Assembly (NCBI GenBank): GCA_012845835.1 | Contig: JABAKD010000019.1 | Location: forward strand, 5,813,494-5,877,493 | Direction of reading: 5' to 3' | DNA: 64,000 bases | Source of the DNA: Undaria pinnatifida | Taxonomy: Eukaryota > Sar > Phaeophyceae > Laminariales > Alariaceae | In this document: positions 17,925 to 63,143 of the stretch, piece by piece | Numbering within the stretch: position 1 is the stretch's first letter | How the letters are laid out: each line of letters starts with the position of its first letter | The notes under the pieces: model-generated | The model's input: the letters and a program-made list of their open reading frames with translations, nothing else | Database searches by the model: none | What the model was told of the DNA's origin: nothing | Program-made: the position numbers and the translations under genes

Positions 17925-20900
17925 ATGTCAAACAAAAGGAAAAGTCCTGGGGGGGAAGGAGAGGGGAGGAACGGCTTGGCGGGTGGGAAACGCAAGGTTC
18001 GGTTCCAGAAGAAGGACGAGAGTGAAGGTGAGACACAGAAAGTTTTTGACTCGTCCTCCTCGTTTTCACCCCCGTCATGAGGTCTTTTGCTCCTCGGGCT
18101 CAGCTGCGAGCTCGAAATCTGAGTGTAAGCTCGAACATTGCTGTCCTCCCGAGAGGTGTCGCTGTGGATAGTTGCTGCGGTTGTAGGTAGTTGCCGCGTC
18201 ACGCACAGGAACCAGCTGTGCTGGAGGCCTTTGTGTAAAGTCTGGCATTACTTGGTGCTCATAAGCAGCATTTTTCTCTAAAGAACTACGATACGACTCT
18301 ACCGGGTATGCGTGCTTCCACGTCTTTGAGCGCGCTGTCTTCACTCTAAAGGTAGCTGTAGCTCTGCTCTGCTTGATGCTGGCTATTGGGCTCGGCAGTA
18401 ATCGGGATCCGCAAGATACTCCCGGTGTACAGCTGTACTGTTCAGCAACACACAGAACACAATCCTGTTCGTAGAGTCCAAGCCCGGATGCCCTGACCGC
18501 CACGCGGTCTGATGAGTATTTATCGTGGTTGTAGTAAGGACAGAGAGGAGAGGCTATAAACGCCAGCTAAGAATACAGCTTGAGGTCGAAAACGCGCTGT
18601 TTGCGTCTGTGCCCTAGTGCACGAAGTCTGAGAGTATGCCGAAGAGTACATCCTGGACGACGGAGGACGCAATGGCCATGATGGCTGGAGGAATTGCTGT
18701 GGAAGAAATCATAGGGGAGTTGAGCGTGTGCATGATGCCGAGAAGTTTCCCGGAAGAAGTAGAACCATCCCCGCACTCGTACATTATTACGGACTGCGGG
18801 GGCGGTTCTACGTCTTCCGGGAAAGCACTTGTCATGCACACGCCCAACTCCCCTTTGATTTCTTCCACAGCAGGTCCTCCAGCCATCATGGCCTTTGCGT
18901 CCTCCGTCGTCCTGGATGTACTCTTCGGCATACTCCCAAACTTGGTCCACTCGTGCACTGCCGCAAACAGCGCATCCTCGACCTCAAGATTTATCCTTAG
19001 CTGGCGTTGAGCAGATTCACCCTCCAGGCGTTGGCTCTGACCCCGGGTCCGGCACGTTACTGTCGGGGGGAGCCGTCCGCAGCTGCTGAGCTTGTGTGCT
19101 GCCCTCCCCGACAGGACCGCGGGGGGATCTTCGCCGTTCCCTTAGTCGGTGCCGGTGGCTGCTGACGCGCCCGAATCGCTTTCGGCTCTTCCTGCCGGGA
19201 CCAAAGAGGCGTCCACCGCGCCCCTTTGAGACGAACCCATCGTCTCGACTGTTTCGGCCCTCCCTGCCGGGACTGAGGAGGCGTCCACCGCACCTCCTTA
19301 TGACGAATCCATCTTTCCGGCTGTCCTGTCGCTAGCATCGCCGGCGGCAGGTGCCTCCTTGCGCGCTCATGCTAAAACGCGTGGAGATCAACCCCCCACG
19401 TCACGTCGAGGTCGTTCAGGCGAGCCAGACCGTCGTCCAGCCCGTCCACCACCCGCCCCCACTTCAACCTGACGTGATCTCGTCGTTGGTCTCGGACCCC
19501 CCTTCTTCCTTAGACAGGGAGCCATGCAGCTGAGCAGGAACAGGTGGTGCCGGCGACACGCGTTGCCAGGTGCTATGACGCGTGATAAGCACAGTACGGT
19601 GTTGGTCAGCACTCGTACGGAGTGTCGGGGACAGTTAGGCGCAGGGCACAAGTAAAAACACTCCTGTGCTTCGCCTGGGACTTGTTTCCCTCTTCACCTT
19701 GCAGTAGCCAGGGTTGAGGAAAAGTAGAGGCGCTACCGAGGAGGGGTCGCCATACCACATCTCGTACGGCGACTTGTTGGCTGTGTTAGCGGACGTTGCC
19801 CTGCGATCCAAAGCGTCGCACTGCCACGCACGCCCAGTGCGACGCTTCAGCTCGCAACGACTCAGTTGCCGGCAATTGCGCTCCGGGAAAAAACTCACGA
19901 ACGTGGGTTCAACCCGCCATTGCGGCCGTTTCAATCAAACCTAGCGCGCGCTCGGCTACCCCATTGAATTGGGGACGGTCGGCCGTGGTGAATTCCTGCT
20001 TGATACCTCGCGATCCACACAGGTCTCTAAGCTTCCCCCCGCGGAGTTCACCGCTCCCATTTGATGGGCCGATTACCACCTTGGAAAGGACACCGTCGGC
20101 ACGAGTATCCGCGAGGAACTGCTCGAACGTTTCCGCGGCGTCCGATTTGTGGCGCATAAAATGCACCCACGTATACCGTGAAAAATTGTCGTGCACGATG
20201 AGAGTGTACCGCTTCCTCCCGAGAGACTCTACCACCTTAGGCCCACTCAAATCCACAAAAACCCTTCCGGGCTTCTTATCTGCTCGTCTGTGCGTGGACT
20301 GCTTGATACCCTTGCGGAGACCCTTCGCCACGGAGCACCCTCTGCACTCCAGCAGCTTTTCCTCGAGGACAATCCCTTGCTGTTCCGCGGTCTTGCGGAG
20401 TAGAACCTCGTGGAAGTGTCCAGCCGCGCAGTGCTAGTCGTTGATGTCAACCACGGGCTTATTGGGCAGTTGTCCCGGGGCGAGTACAGCACAGGCATTT
20501 TCCCTAGTGCTGCAGTCGACCCGGTAACCGTAAAGGCTGTACACGTTCCCGGTCAACGGAAGCACGATTGAACGCTCAAACTTGAGCTTGTCTACAACCC
20601 CCGTGCCGCGCCCTTCGAAAGTGTGGCCGTTTTTGGCGAGAGTAGGCAGGGGAAAAAAAATGGTAGCGGAGGTCTGGCACCTGCGCAACCTTAGTCAGCA
20701 ACACTTGAACGAGACCGTTGCCGGACTGATAGACAAAGTTAATAGCACCATACCCTTCGATCGAGCGGGTTGCGCCATCGGCAATGCGCAGTTTTTAGTT
20801 GCATTCTCTGTAATTGGGCATGCAATCTGCTGCGAGCGTCATGTGAGTAGACGCTCTACTATCGAAAAGCCAGGCCTCATCTCCTACCTGCCAAGCCGAC

Positions 20901-57217: not shown

Positions 57218-60200
57218 TTACCATGAATCTCCGGAGTCGCTGAATGCCCGAAACCCTGACCTACAGCGAGCCTCCCGAGCACGCTTAACTTTGCGTCCCG
57301 CTTGCGCGGCAAAATCGCACAGTCTGAGGGCAGAACAGGAGAGGAGAGGAGAGGGCATGACAGGACAGGACGGAAAGGGTCACGACAGGACAGGACAAAA
57401 CAGGACAGCGAGTCGCAACGACTCGATCACACTGCCGTAGGTGGGGTGAAAACAAGAAGGCGGTGCGTACAAGGCGGGGAGGGGGGGAGCGTATGACAAG
57501 CGTTCTGTCGGAAGAGCTGTCGACCCCCCCCCCACACACACACCCGCCGTTCAGCGAACCACCCAAACGCCAACAACCCGATCCGGGAAAAAAGAAGCGG
57601 TCACCCCCCTGCCTTCACAACCCCTCACTTTATACCCCCGTTCGATCTCTTCATCTGTCTCTTCCTACTCTTGCCATGCTTATCAACTTCTCTAACCCCC
57701 CCCTATATGACGATTACACCCTCCATATATGACTCCCAACTTCTCTACCCCCCCCCCAATGCCCCATGCATGACTCTCACCCCCCCCCCCCCCCCCTCCC
57801 CCCTCATTCCCCAACCCCCCCACCGCCATGCATGCCTCCCAAACCTCTCTACCCACCCCCTCTTTCTCCCACCCTCTCCGGCTATCCTTCCCACCTGCGA
57901 AGAAATTCGTCGTCGTTGTTGTCTGGAAGCGTTTTCTTCTTTGTCGCCATGCGGAAGTCTGGGCCGTATAGCGGGAAGTAAGCATGTTCAGGCACCGACG
58001 CCTGCAGAGCAGCGACGGCGTCGGGTCCCACGGCAGCTGCGGTTAGCGCGGTCCACAGCCGCGCCGAGTCGCTGTGGCATCAGTAGCAGTAGATGCAGAG
58101 GCATAAGTAGTGGTATTAGCGGTGGCATAAGCAGAAGTACAAGCAGTAGCAGCAGGAGTAGTAGTAGAACAAAGGTATAAGCAATAGAATAAGCAGTAGC
58201 ACCAGTATAAGCGGTAGTAGGAGCAGCAGTAGTAGTACTAGTAGCTGTAGCAGAAGTAGCAGAAGTAGCAGCAGTAGTGTGAGCCATAGTATGAGCCGTA
58301 GTGTGCGTACGAGTATGAGGGGTCGTGGTAGTAGTGGTAGTAGTAGCAGCAGTAGAAATGGTGTAAGCAGCACCAGCAAAGACTAGCAGCGGTAGCAGCA
58401 GCAGAACCAGTGTAGGCAGCAGCACAGCAGCAGAAATACAGCAGCGCATGCACAAGCATAGCACCAACAGCAACACGGAAGCAGTCGTAGCACAGCAGTG
58501 GCAGCAGTAGCACCGAAGCAGCACCCTGCAGCACCAGCACCACAGCACCACAACAGCAAAACAGCAGAAACACCCAAAACGAACACCTAAACAACCCCGA
58601 AAAGCACCCGAAACAAACGGGCCCCGCCCTAACCACGCAAGAAAACAAAATCAAAACTCACGTGGGGCAATAGCCGCCCCCTCCCAACAGCAGAAGCGGG
58701 ATGTCAAGAGCCACCACCTGCTCCACGCATGAGCGAACGCCGCCAGACGTAAGGTTGAACGGCCCTAGAGGGTCAGCGGAGAGGGTATCAGCCCCGCACA
58801 AAAGCACCACCGCCTGCGGTTGGAAGCCCTCCGTAATGGACGCGAGGGCGCTCGTGAACACACGGAGGAAGGACTCGTCTCCGCACCCTGTTTTTTCCGT
58901 GCCGGCAAAGCCGAAAAGGGGGCGGGAGTGGAGGGGCCGGATTGGGGTTGGGGTTTGGGTTGGAGGGGGAGGGGGTTGGGGGCTGAGGGGTGTTGAGAAC
59001 GAGGGCTGGGAGTTGGGGAGAGGTGCGGGGGGGGGGGGGGGAGTGATGCCGTGGGTATCACACACCAGTACGTATTTTTAGTCATTGCCGTTGTCGTGAT
59101 CATTACATTTGTTTGGGTTGACAGGGCTATCTAACCGAGAAAAACTACGCACCCAATCTCGTTGGAACAGCATTCGTATTTTTACGATACTTGCTCGCGG
59201 TAGACCCATAATAGGCCATGGGTTTGCCCATCGAGTGAAGCATGCATTATGCTCAGTCAGGTTTTCGGAGGAGAGGTGCATATTTCAAGAGAGTTCCTGA
59301 AGTGACGAATCTCATAGCAATGAGGTGAAGCACCTCCACCGTAGCGTGCGTCTTCCCCCTTACACAAACCCATTTCCAACTCCTAAAAATATCCCAGTCT
59401 AACTCCAAGTGTTATATTCCCGACAATGTCGGGACTGCGGCGCTAAAAGGGTAAAAAAACGCACCTGCTTTCAGCGGAATGTTCAAGTTGAAGCCCTGTC
59501 CCTTCCCCGCCCCGGTCTCCGAGCATTGCCCGGTCCCGGGGAAAAAACCCTTCGCCAGGTGGTGAAAACTCATCGTCATAACCTGCGGATGTCGCCCAAT
59601 CGGGAAAGAGGGGGGGAGGGGGGAGTGCTAAAGAAACAAAGAACGCCTTCGCTAGGTGGTCGAAACCCATCGTCGTAACCCGTGGATGTCGCCAAAACCA
59701 GAAAAAAAGGGGAAATACTGAGGAGGGAGGGGAGGAGCAAATTTAACCAATGGAATGCACGAAAAGTCACTTTGTCTAAACGTAAACAATAAATCAATCA
59801 TACTCAGCGAAGACATCAATGAACTTCCCCATCAGGAGGGTACGATAACGATGACACGTACTAACAGACGCTTAGAAATATAAAACCTTTTCCTACACCA
59901 GGCTCACATACTATAGCAGCAACGAGCACGGGGGTGAAACAATCGTATAATTTCCACATGCGAGGGAGGGAGACGGCACCCGCTCAATCGCCTCACCTTG
60001 TCTGACATGTAAAACGCCTCCTGAACTCCATCCCCGTGATGGACATCTGCAAAGCAAAAACGAAAAGAAAATTCGAGGGTTCGAGGCAGCGATAAACACA
60101 TTATTTGACAATTCTAACCATTTTCCCCCCCAGTGATATATATCATCAGGGGGCACTTCGACCGGTTTTTTGTGTGGGTCAGACTATAGGGTTAGGGTTA

Positions 60201-63143
60201 GTTAGCATGGTTGAAAAAACACAAAAATGTAGGACACCCGTTCGAGGAAGGGGTGGTACAGACTACCAAACAGAGTAGGCGTCCCCGATGGACTACTATA
60301 GGTAAGTACCGCTAACGTTAGAGTCGTGGGTTTCAAGTCTCACCGAGTGCATACTCGTGCTCGTAGGGATTCTTTCTTGCGTCAACTATTGACGAGCGGA
60401 AAGCGCGAGAGCGTGACTTAGCAAAATTCGGTGAAAATCGACGAACATAAATAGCTGAAAAGAGTGGGAATGCTGAACCCTATGTGCGAAAAAAATGAAG
60501 GCATTTACCGGGGGGGAAGTAGGGAACACGCCTGTGACCACGGCTTGTCCATAAGGTCGCCAAGGGAAAACCTCTTACGGGTCGAGCTGGGGAGTAAAAA
60601 TGAAAAAAAAAAATCGAGGGTTTGAGGAGTGGTATGTTCCATTCATACTACGAAAAAAAGCGAGTTTCTACTTCACACCGCGCCGAATGACAGGGACCTC
60701 TACAACGAGGGCCTACGACCGCCGATCGATATTAAAAAATATCAACCTCCTTTCACCCATCCCTCCCTCCCCTTCTCCCTCCCGCCTTCTAACCAGTGTC
60801 AATTGTCAACGTAGGCAGTGCCGAAGGTCTTGACCAGGTGCAGCAGCACCAAAACATCATTCACATAGTAACCCCCTCCTCCATATATAACTGAAATTAT
60901 AATCCTCCTGTCAACCCCCGCCTGCCGTCTTCTCACCGATATCAATCGTCAGCACGGTACCGAAGGTCTTGGTCAGGTGCAGCACCGCCAAAACGCCATC
61001 ATTCACATAGCAAAACCCAGCGGCCTCCCCTTTTTTAGCATGATGCCTGACGGGGAGAAAAAAATATCGAGGAGAGATATATTATTGCCGTCGTCGTAAG
61101 GCAAAAGGCAAACGTAAAAGGCAAAGGCAAAGGCAAGGACGAAGACAAAAATATACACGTAAATACAATAACTAAATAAATACAAAACTGAATGCACATG
61201 TAACGGAAGGTGGAGTGAAGCCCGAGGGAACGCGGGGAGGGGGGGGGAGGTGGCACCCAACGGTACTATTCAATGGCGCTAGACCACCGGACCGTACTAC
61301 ATTGCCCAGCGGTACAACACTATCAAACGATACTACGAATACTCAACGGTAGTATTCAACGGTACTTTCCAGCGATTGTAAAGGACGCGACAGCACGAAA
61401 AAAGTAAAAAGTTGGGACTTTGGAGTTTTTGGCTCGTTTTTCGTACGAAACATAATAAATCCATTTTGTAGTACTACATTGGCGTAGCACCTCGCCGGAT
61501 GACAATCACCGCACTATAGTGGGACCGCGCACTATCACCGGATGTCGCATTACTCTACAGGACGAGGCCGTGACATTATACTTTCACCGACCTAAGGGAA
61601 GTCGCCGACCAACATCCTTAACGAGAGCACACACCCAGCAATACGCGCAATCGGAGTATCACACACAGCTTGCAGAGATGAGTTTGGACGAAACCTTCGA
61701 TCTCACAGCCGGAGGGTATTTTGATTTTCTATAATATATTTTCACCGCAATAAATTGGGGGCCTGCACTAAAGGCTACCGCACTAAGTTGGGACCTTGCA
61801 CTATAGTACGTAGCCGTACAATGTATAAATAGGTGGTGACAAGATATTTTCACCGTACTAAACCGGAGCCCCGCACTACGGGTACCGCACTAGCGCGGGA
61901 CCACGACCGTGGTGGAATTAGTGTAATGCACACCCTGAATAAAAAAAGAACTCGAGGCACTGTAGCCCATTTTTAGAGTGAATGAAGTGCTGCCGGTCAC
62001 TGTATCCGACGATACCGCGCAACGTACTGTCGAACGGTACAATACCGGTAGTACCCAGCAATACCATACTACTATTTTTTAAACCGAGTGGTGCTATGCT
62101 GCCCAATGTTACCATCCGACGGTACCGTTCGATGATACTATGCTATGTCCAACAGTAGAGTCCAACGGTACTGCCCAACGGTACTGCCCAACGGTACTGC
62201 CCAACGGTACCGTCTAGCGATACTATTCAACGATACTATCCAATGGAACTGTCCGACGATGCTACCAAACGGTGGTACCAAACACTCCCATACTACCCTA
62301 TGGGACCATCCGACGGGACTATACTACCCAACGGTAATACCCAACGTACTGCAGTCCAACAGTCCAACCCAACCGTACCGCCCAACGGCACTGCCCAACG
62401 GTACTGCTGTTCAGCAGTACTTCCAACGATACTATTCAGCGGACCTATGGTACAATGCTATCAAATGGTACTATATTACCCTATCATACGGTACGACCCG
62501 ACGGAACTATATTACCCAACGCACCGTCCAACAGTACAACCAACTGTACTGCCCAACGGTACTATTGACCAGTGGTACTTCCAAAGGTATTATCCAACGG
62601 AACTATCCGACGATGCTACCAAACGGTACTGTACTACCCTATGGTACTATCCGATGGTACCATACCTTCCACCACCCCAGTTAACGGCAACATCGGCGTT
62701 GCCCCTGCACAGACGGTCGGCGGCGTGGAGCGAGGCCCCTGCAACTGCGCAGCAGTAGTCGTAAAGCTCCTCGAACACCTTAACGACGGATATCAACGGC
62801 CAAAAGCGGTGGCAGATGGGCTCCTTTGCGTTGTTGGGCTGGGTTGGATTGCGTTGGATTGGGTTCAGATTGTTTGAAAAAAGCGGCATCGGGAGACAGT
62901 GAGATTCTCAGAAACGCGACGAGGAAACCGGAGTAAAAAACACGCCGACAACAAAGTGTTTTGCCGAATTACGTATGACACCACCACCACCTCGTATCAT
63001 ATTTGGGGACAGACTTTCTTGAGACAAGCTTTTCGGAAACCCGGAAATCAAAACACCGACAGCAATATTAGACGCACCTCGCAATCGTCCAAAAGGCCGT
63101 ACTCGTCGAGCACCTTGACGTCCGACGGAGGGTTTCGAAGAGC
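57218..63143 (-). CDS. Class I (HDAC8-like) histone deacetylase, eight exons, N-terminus not found
   Basis: Zinc-dependent lysine deacetylase acting on histone tails, by family. Exons in transcript order: 63143-63078, 62778-62666, 61046-60937, 60046-59997, 59582-59465, 58887-58662, 58071-57895, 57323-57218. All phases agree, giving about 321 residues to a TAA stop. Visible landmarks are [17 protein letters not shown], the active-site HHAKK followed by AAGFCYVND, the metal-binding [34 protein letters not shown], and [14 protein letters not shown] with the catalytic Tyr. Zinc ligands and both active-site His are intact, so an active enzyme is expected. About 80 N-terminal residues expected from class I HDACs are missing. 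I found no suitable exon between 63144 and 64000, so it probably continues beyond the window. The last exon is inferred from a strong pyrimidine-rich acceptor and matching phase; its basic tail has no family match. Decayed copies of two exons lie in the introns. Confidence 0.92.
58085..58340. repeat. AGTAGCAG/AGTAGTAG low-complexity tract in an HDAC intron
   Basis: CAGTAGTAG-type repeats with many variants, just upstream (gene-wise) of the exon at 58071. Poly-Ser and poly-Leu frames are artefacts. Confidence 0.85.
59641..59711 (-). pseudogene. Decayed copy of the HDAC exon 59582-59465 start
   Basis: Read on the minus strand it matches the acceptor region and first 15 or so codons of the true exon ([14 protein letters not shown]), here [14 protein letters not shown]. 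The acceptor CAG has become CGG, so it should not be spliced in. It lies about 60 bases upstream of the real exon in transcript order. Confidence 0.85.
60279..60611 (+). mobile_element. SINE-like element, copy 4, with A-rich tail
   Basis: Starts GTCCCCGATGGACTACTATA, with B-box GGGTTTCAAGTCTCACCG. The body has GCTGAACCCTATGTGCG, TGTGACCACGGCTTGTCCAT and GGTCGCCAAGGGAAAACC, and it ends in ATG followed by an A run. In an intron of the HDAC gene, antisense to it. Confidence 0.8.
60783..60878 (-). pseudogene. Decayed copy of the HDAC exon 61046-60937 end
   Basis: The minus strand reads [18 protein letters not shown] then a stop, matching [20 protein letters not shown] of the true exon. The N-terminal HHAKK part is missing and the GTGAGA donor is changed, so it cannot replace the real exon. 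It lies about 60 bases downstream of the exon in transcript order. Confidence 0.85.
61500..61920. repeat. Copy of the GCACTATAGTG repeat with an inserted R2 fragment
   Basis: Shares GGTGACAAGATATTTTCACC, CCGCACTAAGTTGGGACC and GCGGGACCACGAC with 1233-1545. A fragment at about 61590-61735 instead matches the repeat at 50590-50745, so one repeat has inserted into the other. Lies in an HDAC intron. Confidence 0.75.
62150..62650 (+). repeat. CCAACGGTACT minisatellite in an HDAC intron
   Basis: Many copies of CCAACGGTACTGC and variants such as CCGACGATACTAT; related units also occur at 61260-61380 and 62000-62150. It ends about 15 bases short of the donor of the HDAC exon at 62778-62666. Confidence 0.85.

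Follow-up and report, generated by a model that had tools for sequence, protein, structure and literature searches.

Exon-Edge Echoes in an HDAC Gene of Undaria pinnatifida and Short Local Duplications around Sampled Exons

The HDAC Gene and Partial Copies of Its Exons

We analyzed a stretch of 64,000 nucleotides from the brown alga Undaria pinnatifida, hereafter the window, which corresponds to positions 5813494-5877493 of contig JABAKD010000019.1 in an assembly of 511 Mb and 68 contigs (GCA_012845835.1); coordinates are counted from the first letter of the window. A histone deacetylase (HDAC) gene occupies 57218..63143 on the minus strand. Eight exons were placed, in order 63143-63078, 62778-62666, 61046-60937, 60046-59997, 59582-59465, 58887-58662, 58071-57895, and 57323-57218, the first exons of the gene being outside the placed set. 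Joined, they comprise 966 nt without an internal stop and end in TAA, with AG and GT displayed at the borders, and the encoded protein matched Pfam Hist_deacetyl with 243.6 bits over profile positions 68-297, the curated cut-off being 27.9. Exons 1-5 of the eight placed matched the HDAC3, Clr6, HDAC8, and Rpd3 chains, among others. Given the open join and the Pfam match, the exon coordinates of the initial annotation are correct. The intron that precedes exon 61046-60937 holds several blocks of a degenerate 13-nt minisatellite (62147-62665; unit near CCAACGGTACTGC). At 18559-19008, the window also contains an imperfect palindrome of ~450 bp, with an 85% match to its reverse complement, that resembles a foldback element or MITE.

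Two decayed partial duplicates lie within the introns of this gene, which is itself intact beside them. Copy A (60778..60871, minus strand) repeats the 3′ edge of exon 61046-60937, the protein of which ends TIDID, together with its donor and adjoining intron. In local alignment on the minus strand, 60871-60778 and the parent segment 61013-60921 were identical in 75/97 columns with a score of 82, as compared to a maximum of 29 among 2000 dinucleotide shuffles, and the pair was recovered when the whole window was compared with itself by BLAST (E value 4e-12). Specifically, copy A takes in the last 77 nt of the exon and 16 nt of intron. Its border equivalent is at 60794/60793, where the donor GTGAGA reads GTTAGA, so that GT is retained. 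The exon part has a 3-nt deletion and a 4-nt insertion that break the frame, and translation onward in the frame of the parent hits a TGA stop. When the stretch upstream of the copy was compared with the 5′ part of the exon, 329/1000 shuffles did equally well or better; duplication of the whole exon was therefore rejected for copy A, which stops before the exon start and for which "partial" is apt.

Copy B (59638..59712, minus strand) derives from exon 59582-59465, of which it repeats the 5′ edge together with the acceptor; this exon contributes to the joined Hist_deacetyl protein. The copy, made up of 33 nt of intron followed by the first 41 nt of the exon, aligned to the parent segment (59712-59638 versus 59615-59542, minus strand) with 59/75 columns identical and a score of 68, the maximum among 2000 dinucleotide shuffles being 31, and it too was recovered in the whole-window self-BLAST (E value 7e-9, 67 columns). 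At the border equivalent, 59680/59679, the acceptor CAG has become CGG, with loss of the AG. A 1-nt insertion breaks the frame of the exon part, and in the frame of the parent VMTMSFH is changed to VTTMGFD; the residues altered (VMT.SFH) are common to the exon and two aligned HDACs. No continuation into the remainder of the exon was found (969/1000 shuffles were as good). A search of the whole assembly (E up to 0.01), which ignores simple repeats and very common words, returned for copy A only itself and its parent. For copy B it returned only the copy itself and missed the parent exon, indicating that the reach of the search is short at such divergence.

The exon-edge copies described in the initial annotation thus exist, with similarity far above that of shuffled sequence (0/2000 shuffles reached either alignment score), and the alignments bear out that each consists of one exon edge plus its intron flank. 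The further statement that each had lost its splice site holds for copy B but only in part for copy A, in which the donor is altered but GT is kept. The copies, rather than the exons, appear to be the side that changed, because shared HDAC residues are altered in copy B and a stop is met in copy A. Changes in the exon parts of the two copies together fall evenly over the three codon positions (6/39, 6/38, and 6/38), and the HDAC copies show no sign of coding constraint. They presumably drift neutrally, and neither is likely to be spliced.

A possible third echo was seen at 60597..60627 (minus strand), a T-rich tract resembling 60056-60086, which precedes exon 60046-59997 and is 541 nt away. 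This candidate scored 38, the maximum among 1000 shuffles being 30, and is missing from the window-wide list of self-matches, the threshold of which it falls under.

Local Copies in the Window and at Sampled Exons

Self-comparison of the window recovered 53 direct and 16 inverted local matches within 1 kb, with rows from arrays counted separately; a single locus at 28.1-28.7 kb accounts for 14 of the inverted rows. The direct local matches covered 7381/64000 bases and the inverted ones 1024/64000.

Two sets of exons were sampled from the assembly. The first was drawn from Pfam matches to HDAC (8 of 33), kinesin (30 of 130), and DEAD (30 of 52), which were the top-scoring matches and so not a random selection. 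After exclusion of L004, the HDAC gene studied here, and of L010, which is identical to L009, 66 exons were left, and an exon was counted if a significant local direct copy overlapped its match by at least 25 nt. Local direct copies were present for 11/66 exons and inverted copies for 0/66. The second sample comprised the first 20 of 64 SNF2 matches that had no internal stops, with a 700-nt flank on each side, and here direct copies were present for 4/20 exons and inverted copies for 0/20. Both samples together therefore had a local direct partial copy in 15/86 exons and an inverted one in 0/86. Shuffled controls of 88 loci had no direct and two inverted matches, with a direct match on the exon in 0/88. 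In the 66 loci of the first sample, there were 139 direct and 13 inverted local matches, 31 of the direct ones in one array (L008).

Exon-size windows placed in sequence flanking the first-sample exons had direct matches in 1555/13000 cases (12%) and inverted matches in 212/13000; these windows omit L004, L008, and L010, and the flanks may contain other exons. The exon rate did not differ significantly from the flank rate (p 0.13 for 15/86; p 0.25 for 11/66), and exons are thus struck about as often as their surroundings. A special targeting of exons by duplication is accordingly unsupported. The HDAC copies look like part of an ordinary background of short local duplication, with nothing particular to HDAC.

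Several other observations were made during these searches. At one DEAD-box locus (L055, 813-931 and 1501-1618), the exon match reads GSGQT and its upstream copy GSGKT, so that the functional exon may be the upstream copy, with the matched one as its relic. Two kinesin exons of 597 nt, 29 kb apart on contig C2 (16037041-16037637 and 16066188-16066784), are identical, reflecting either a recent larger duplication or a doubling in the assembly. An HDAC-family match on the 210,798-bp contig C45 (159742-160530) runs for 263 stop-free codons within a 356-aa frame, whereas exon matches elsewhere are short, and this contig is possibly bacterial. The EsV-1-7 family is expanded in brown algae, and its motif had 150 scored matches among 2162 candidates genome-wide, with many of those listed on contig C30; no matches were found in 14 control genomes of bacteria and archaea.

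Geometry, Decay, and Origin of the Copies

Judged by eye, the copy lay outward of the edge that it repeats in 19/19 affected exon edges, the two of the HDAC gene included, such that copies of 5′ edges were upstream and copies of 3′ edges downstream. The count was 17/17 without L055, which has stops inside the matched stretch, and L061, in which the copy ends short of the border. At several exons (L024, L055, L070, L071, L073, and L087), a single edge was represented by two to four copies.

The sequence between copy and parent was examined in 14 copies, with L055 and the SNF2 loci left out and with shuffles that preserved base composition only. The spacer continued the similarity at z above 2 on the intron side, where a decayed tandem unit would be expected to show it, in 5/14 copies, a figure that does not include the HDAC copies and to which L024 (offset 649) possibly contributes a value inflated by a neighboring copy, and on the other side in 0/14. 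The HDAC pairs have spacers of 49 and 22 nt, with z values for continued similarity on the intron side of 0.1 and -1.0. Among simple local pairs, copy and parent were adjacent or overlapping (spacer of at most 15 nt) in 22/63, and in 3/8 of those with at least 90% identity. Adjacent birth of every pair is unsupported by these counts.

Pooled over the 14 copies, changes numbered 39/289, 52/291, and 71/284 at the first, second, and third codon positions (chi-square p 0.002). We read the excess at third positions as synonymous drift of the exon beside a free copy, although some copies other than those of HDAC may have been under coding constraint in the past. Differing columns made up 72/344 of the intron and 162/864 of the exon part (p 0.43), counted over aligned columns, with alignments that end where similarity fades. 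The notion that border relics outlast intron-only duplicates through selection on the exon side, with the intron part fading faster, finds no support in these proportions.

The AG or GT was kept in 17/22 copies with an assignable border, copy A among them, as scored by eye. This count sets aside five copies for which the border was unassignable (L033, two of L055, L061, and one of L071) and scores the 3′ copy of L073 as lost, per its alignment, though a GT adjoins. Neutral loss at ~19% divergence (162/864 exon columns) would spare about two thirds of such sites, and the counts give no sign that selection has removed splice sites from the copies. Four copies of the acceptor and first codons lie upstream of the SNF2 exon of L073 (contig C31), at 1-77, 131-200, 333-409, and 499-574 in gene orientation. 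CAG is present in 4/4 of these acceptor-spanning copies, and 3/4 are open over 22 codons, the fourth having a stop. Judging from their sequence, splicing may still make use of some of these copies.

Taken together, both HDAC copies are probably relics of short tandem-type duplications that crossed exon borders and then decayed. In such an event, one breakpoint would fall inside the exon and the other in the neighboring intron, which would keep the real exon contiguous while dropping a partial exon and its splice site into the intron, outward of the source edge. A duplication of this kind would be tolerated because the real exon remains whole, and the deposited copy would decay afterwards. The initial annotation had proposed that short tandem duplications spanning exon borders occurred repeatedly and then decayed. 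That proposal is supported by the outward order, the frame-breaking indels, the even spread of changes over codon positions in the HDAC copies, and the like cases in 15/86 other exons, but the HDAC spacers are without continued similarity. We infer tandem duplication as the birth event of copies A and B, and have worded it "tandem-type" because few pairs are adjacent (22/63), the pooled codon changes are uneven, and the intron columns fade no faster than those of the exon.

The spacers are what lend some credit to a different birth, in which template switching, or break repair that copied a nearby stretch, would have produced the copy with a spacer from the outset and not by tandem duplication. 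Apart from the HDAC spacers of 49 and 22 nt, young spaced pairs exist, for example at L034 (117-172 and 253-308), where 96% identity is combined with an 80-nt spacer. However, random re-insertion predicts copies of 5′ edges on both sides of the exon, and all 19 edges had theirs outward by eye; the preponderance of direct over inverted matches (139 versus 13 in the 66 loci, array L008 contributing 31 of the 139) also speaks against it. We regard this origin as rather unlikely for the HDAC copies, while some local duplicates in the genome may have been born with a spacer or may be small mobile elements.

The other proposal of the initial annotation was that the copies are abandoned alternative exons; we weighed it together with the case of alternative exons still in use, each copy being spliced at some time in place of its parent. 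The donor GT of copy A, the splice dinucleotides kept in most scored copies, the four CAG-keeping acceptor copies at L073 (three of them open), and the lean of the pooled changes toward third codon positions would each agree with it. Nevertheless, both HDAC copies lack part of the exon, copy A falling short of the acceptor, and both are frameshifted, with changes spread evenly over codon positions; the proposal is not supported, and such a past seems improbable for these two copies. A mobile or introner-like element that resembles an exon by chance is far harder to credit, even in a genome where direct local repeats are plentiful, in that each copy consists of coding sequence from its own neighbor and neither had a further match in the assembly with E of 0.01 or less, in a search that for copy B missed even the parent. 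Finally, no evidence was found in favor of chance similarity or an assembly artifact, though local low-complexity tracts can hinder assembly. With 0/2000 shuffles attaining either score, and with over 20% of columns differing between copy and parent, so that the copies are not a doubled haplotype, this explanation has next to no probability.

Consequences and Comparison with Known Systems

For the HDAC enzyme, the copies have little consequence: the frame is intact and they look like debris. The mechanism is already known, and it is the density of copies that is of interest. Among the papers listed by our literature searches, we recognized none that reports partial copies of exon edges across the genome of a brown alga. 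We tentatively suggest that frequent short tandem-type duplication leaves a visible echo of the edge in the adjacent intron for about one-sixth of exons, in many cases with an intact splice dinucleotide and in some with two to four echoes, and that the same process could perhaps be a source of cryptic splice sites, of longer introns, and of the material from which exon arrays in brown algal receptor genes are built. If so, exon echoes would be a record of local duplication. In this genome, internal gene duplication has left traces that can be counted. Should the rate of 15/86 extend genome-wide and to sister species, one could test in brown algae whether introns grow and exon arrays form through local duplication. 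If general, it would also call for caution in gene prediction, since partial exons would commonly flank real ones.

The closest counterpart is the RdRp gene of potato, in which a genomic segment spanning an intron-exon boundary has been described as tandemly duplicated (PMC4974935). As proposed here for copy B, the segment combines the 3′ end of an intron with the 5′ end of the exon after it, and it was duplicated in tandem inside a single gene. Unlike copy B, the potato duplicate is young, and by that account it gave rise to an additional intron that is spliced and added coding sequence to the gene, whereas copy B has diverged by about a fifth, has lost its AG, and gives no hint of splicing. 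Tandem duplication is also a listed route of intron gain, in a review (PMC3443670) and in work on Drosophila (PMC2891723), and there, as here, exon sequence and splice signals are duplicated locally. In the cases described in those sources, the duplicated coding sequence carries a proto-splice site, given as AGGT in the review, and an intron results, whereas in the present case an existing border is spanned and seemingly only intronic debris is left. In Daphnia, internal direct repeats were reported in 55/90 newly gained introns, as compared to 16.2% of established ones, and were ascribed to staggered breaks (PMC4202315).

Within brown algae, the ROCO genes are reported to have undergone intense shuffling of whole LRR exons (PMC11378527), and the HDAC gene resembles them in having exon sequence repeated within the gene. 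The repeated ROCO exons are whole, 72 bp long, in phase, and spliced, while the HDAC copies are partial and frameshifted. The present case is likewise akin to internal gene duplication as characterized by Gao and Lynch (2009, PNAS 106:20818), in which segments internal to genes are duplicated and introns are created there; relative to that work, the figure of 15/86 given here is per exon and from one genome. To these known cases, our analysis adds a per-exon count and the outward geometry of the copies in a single genome.
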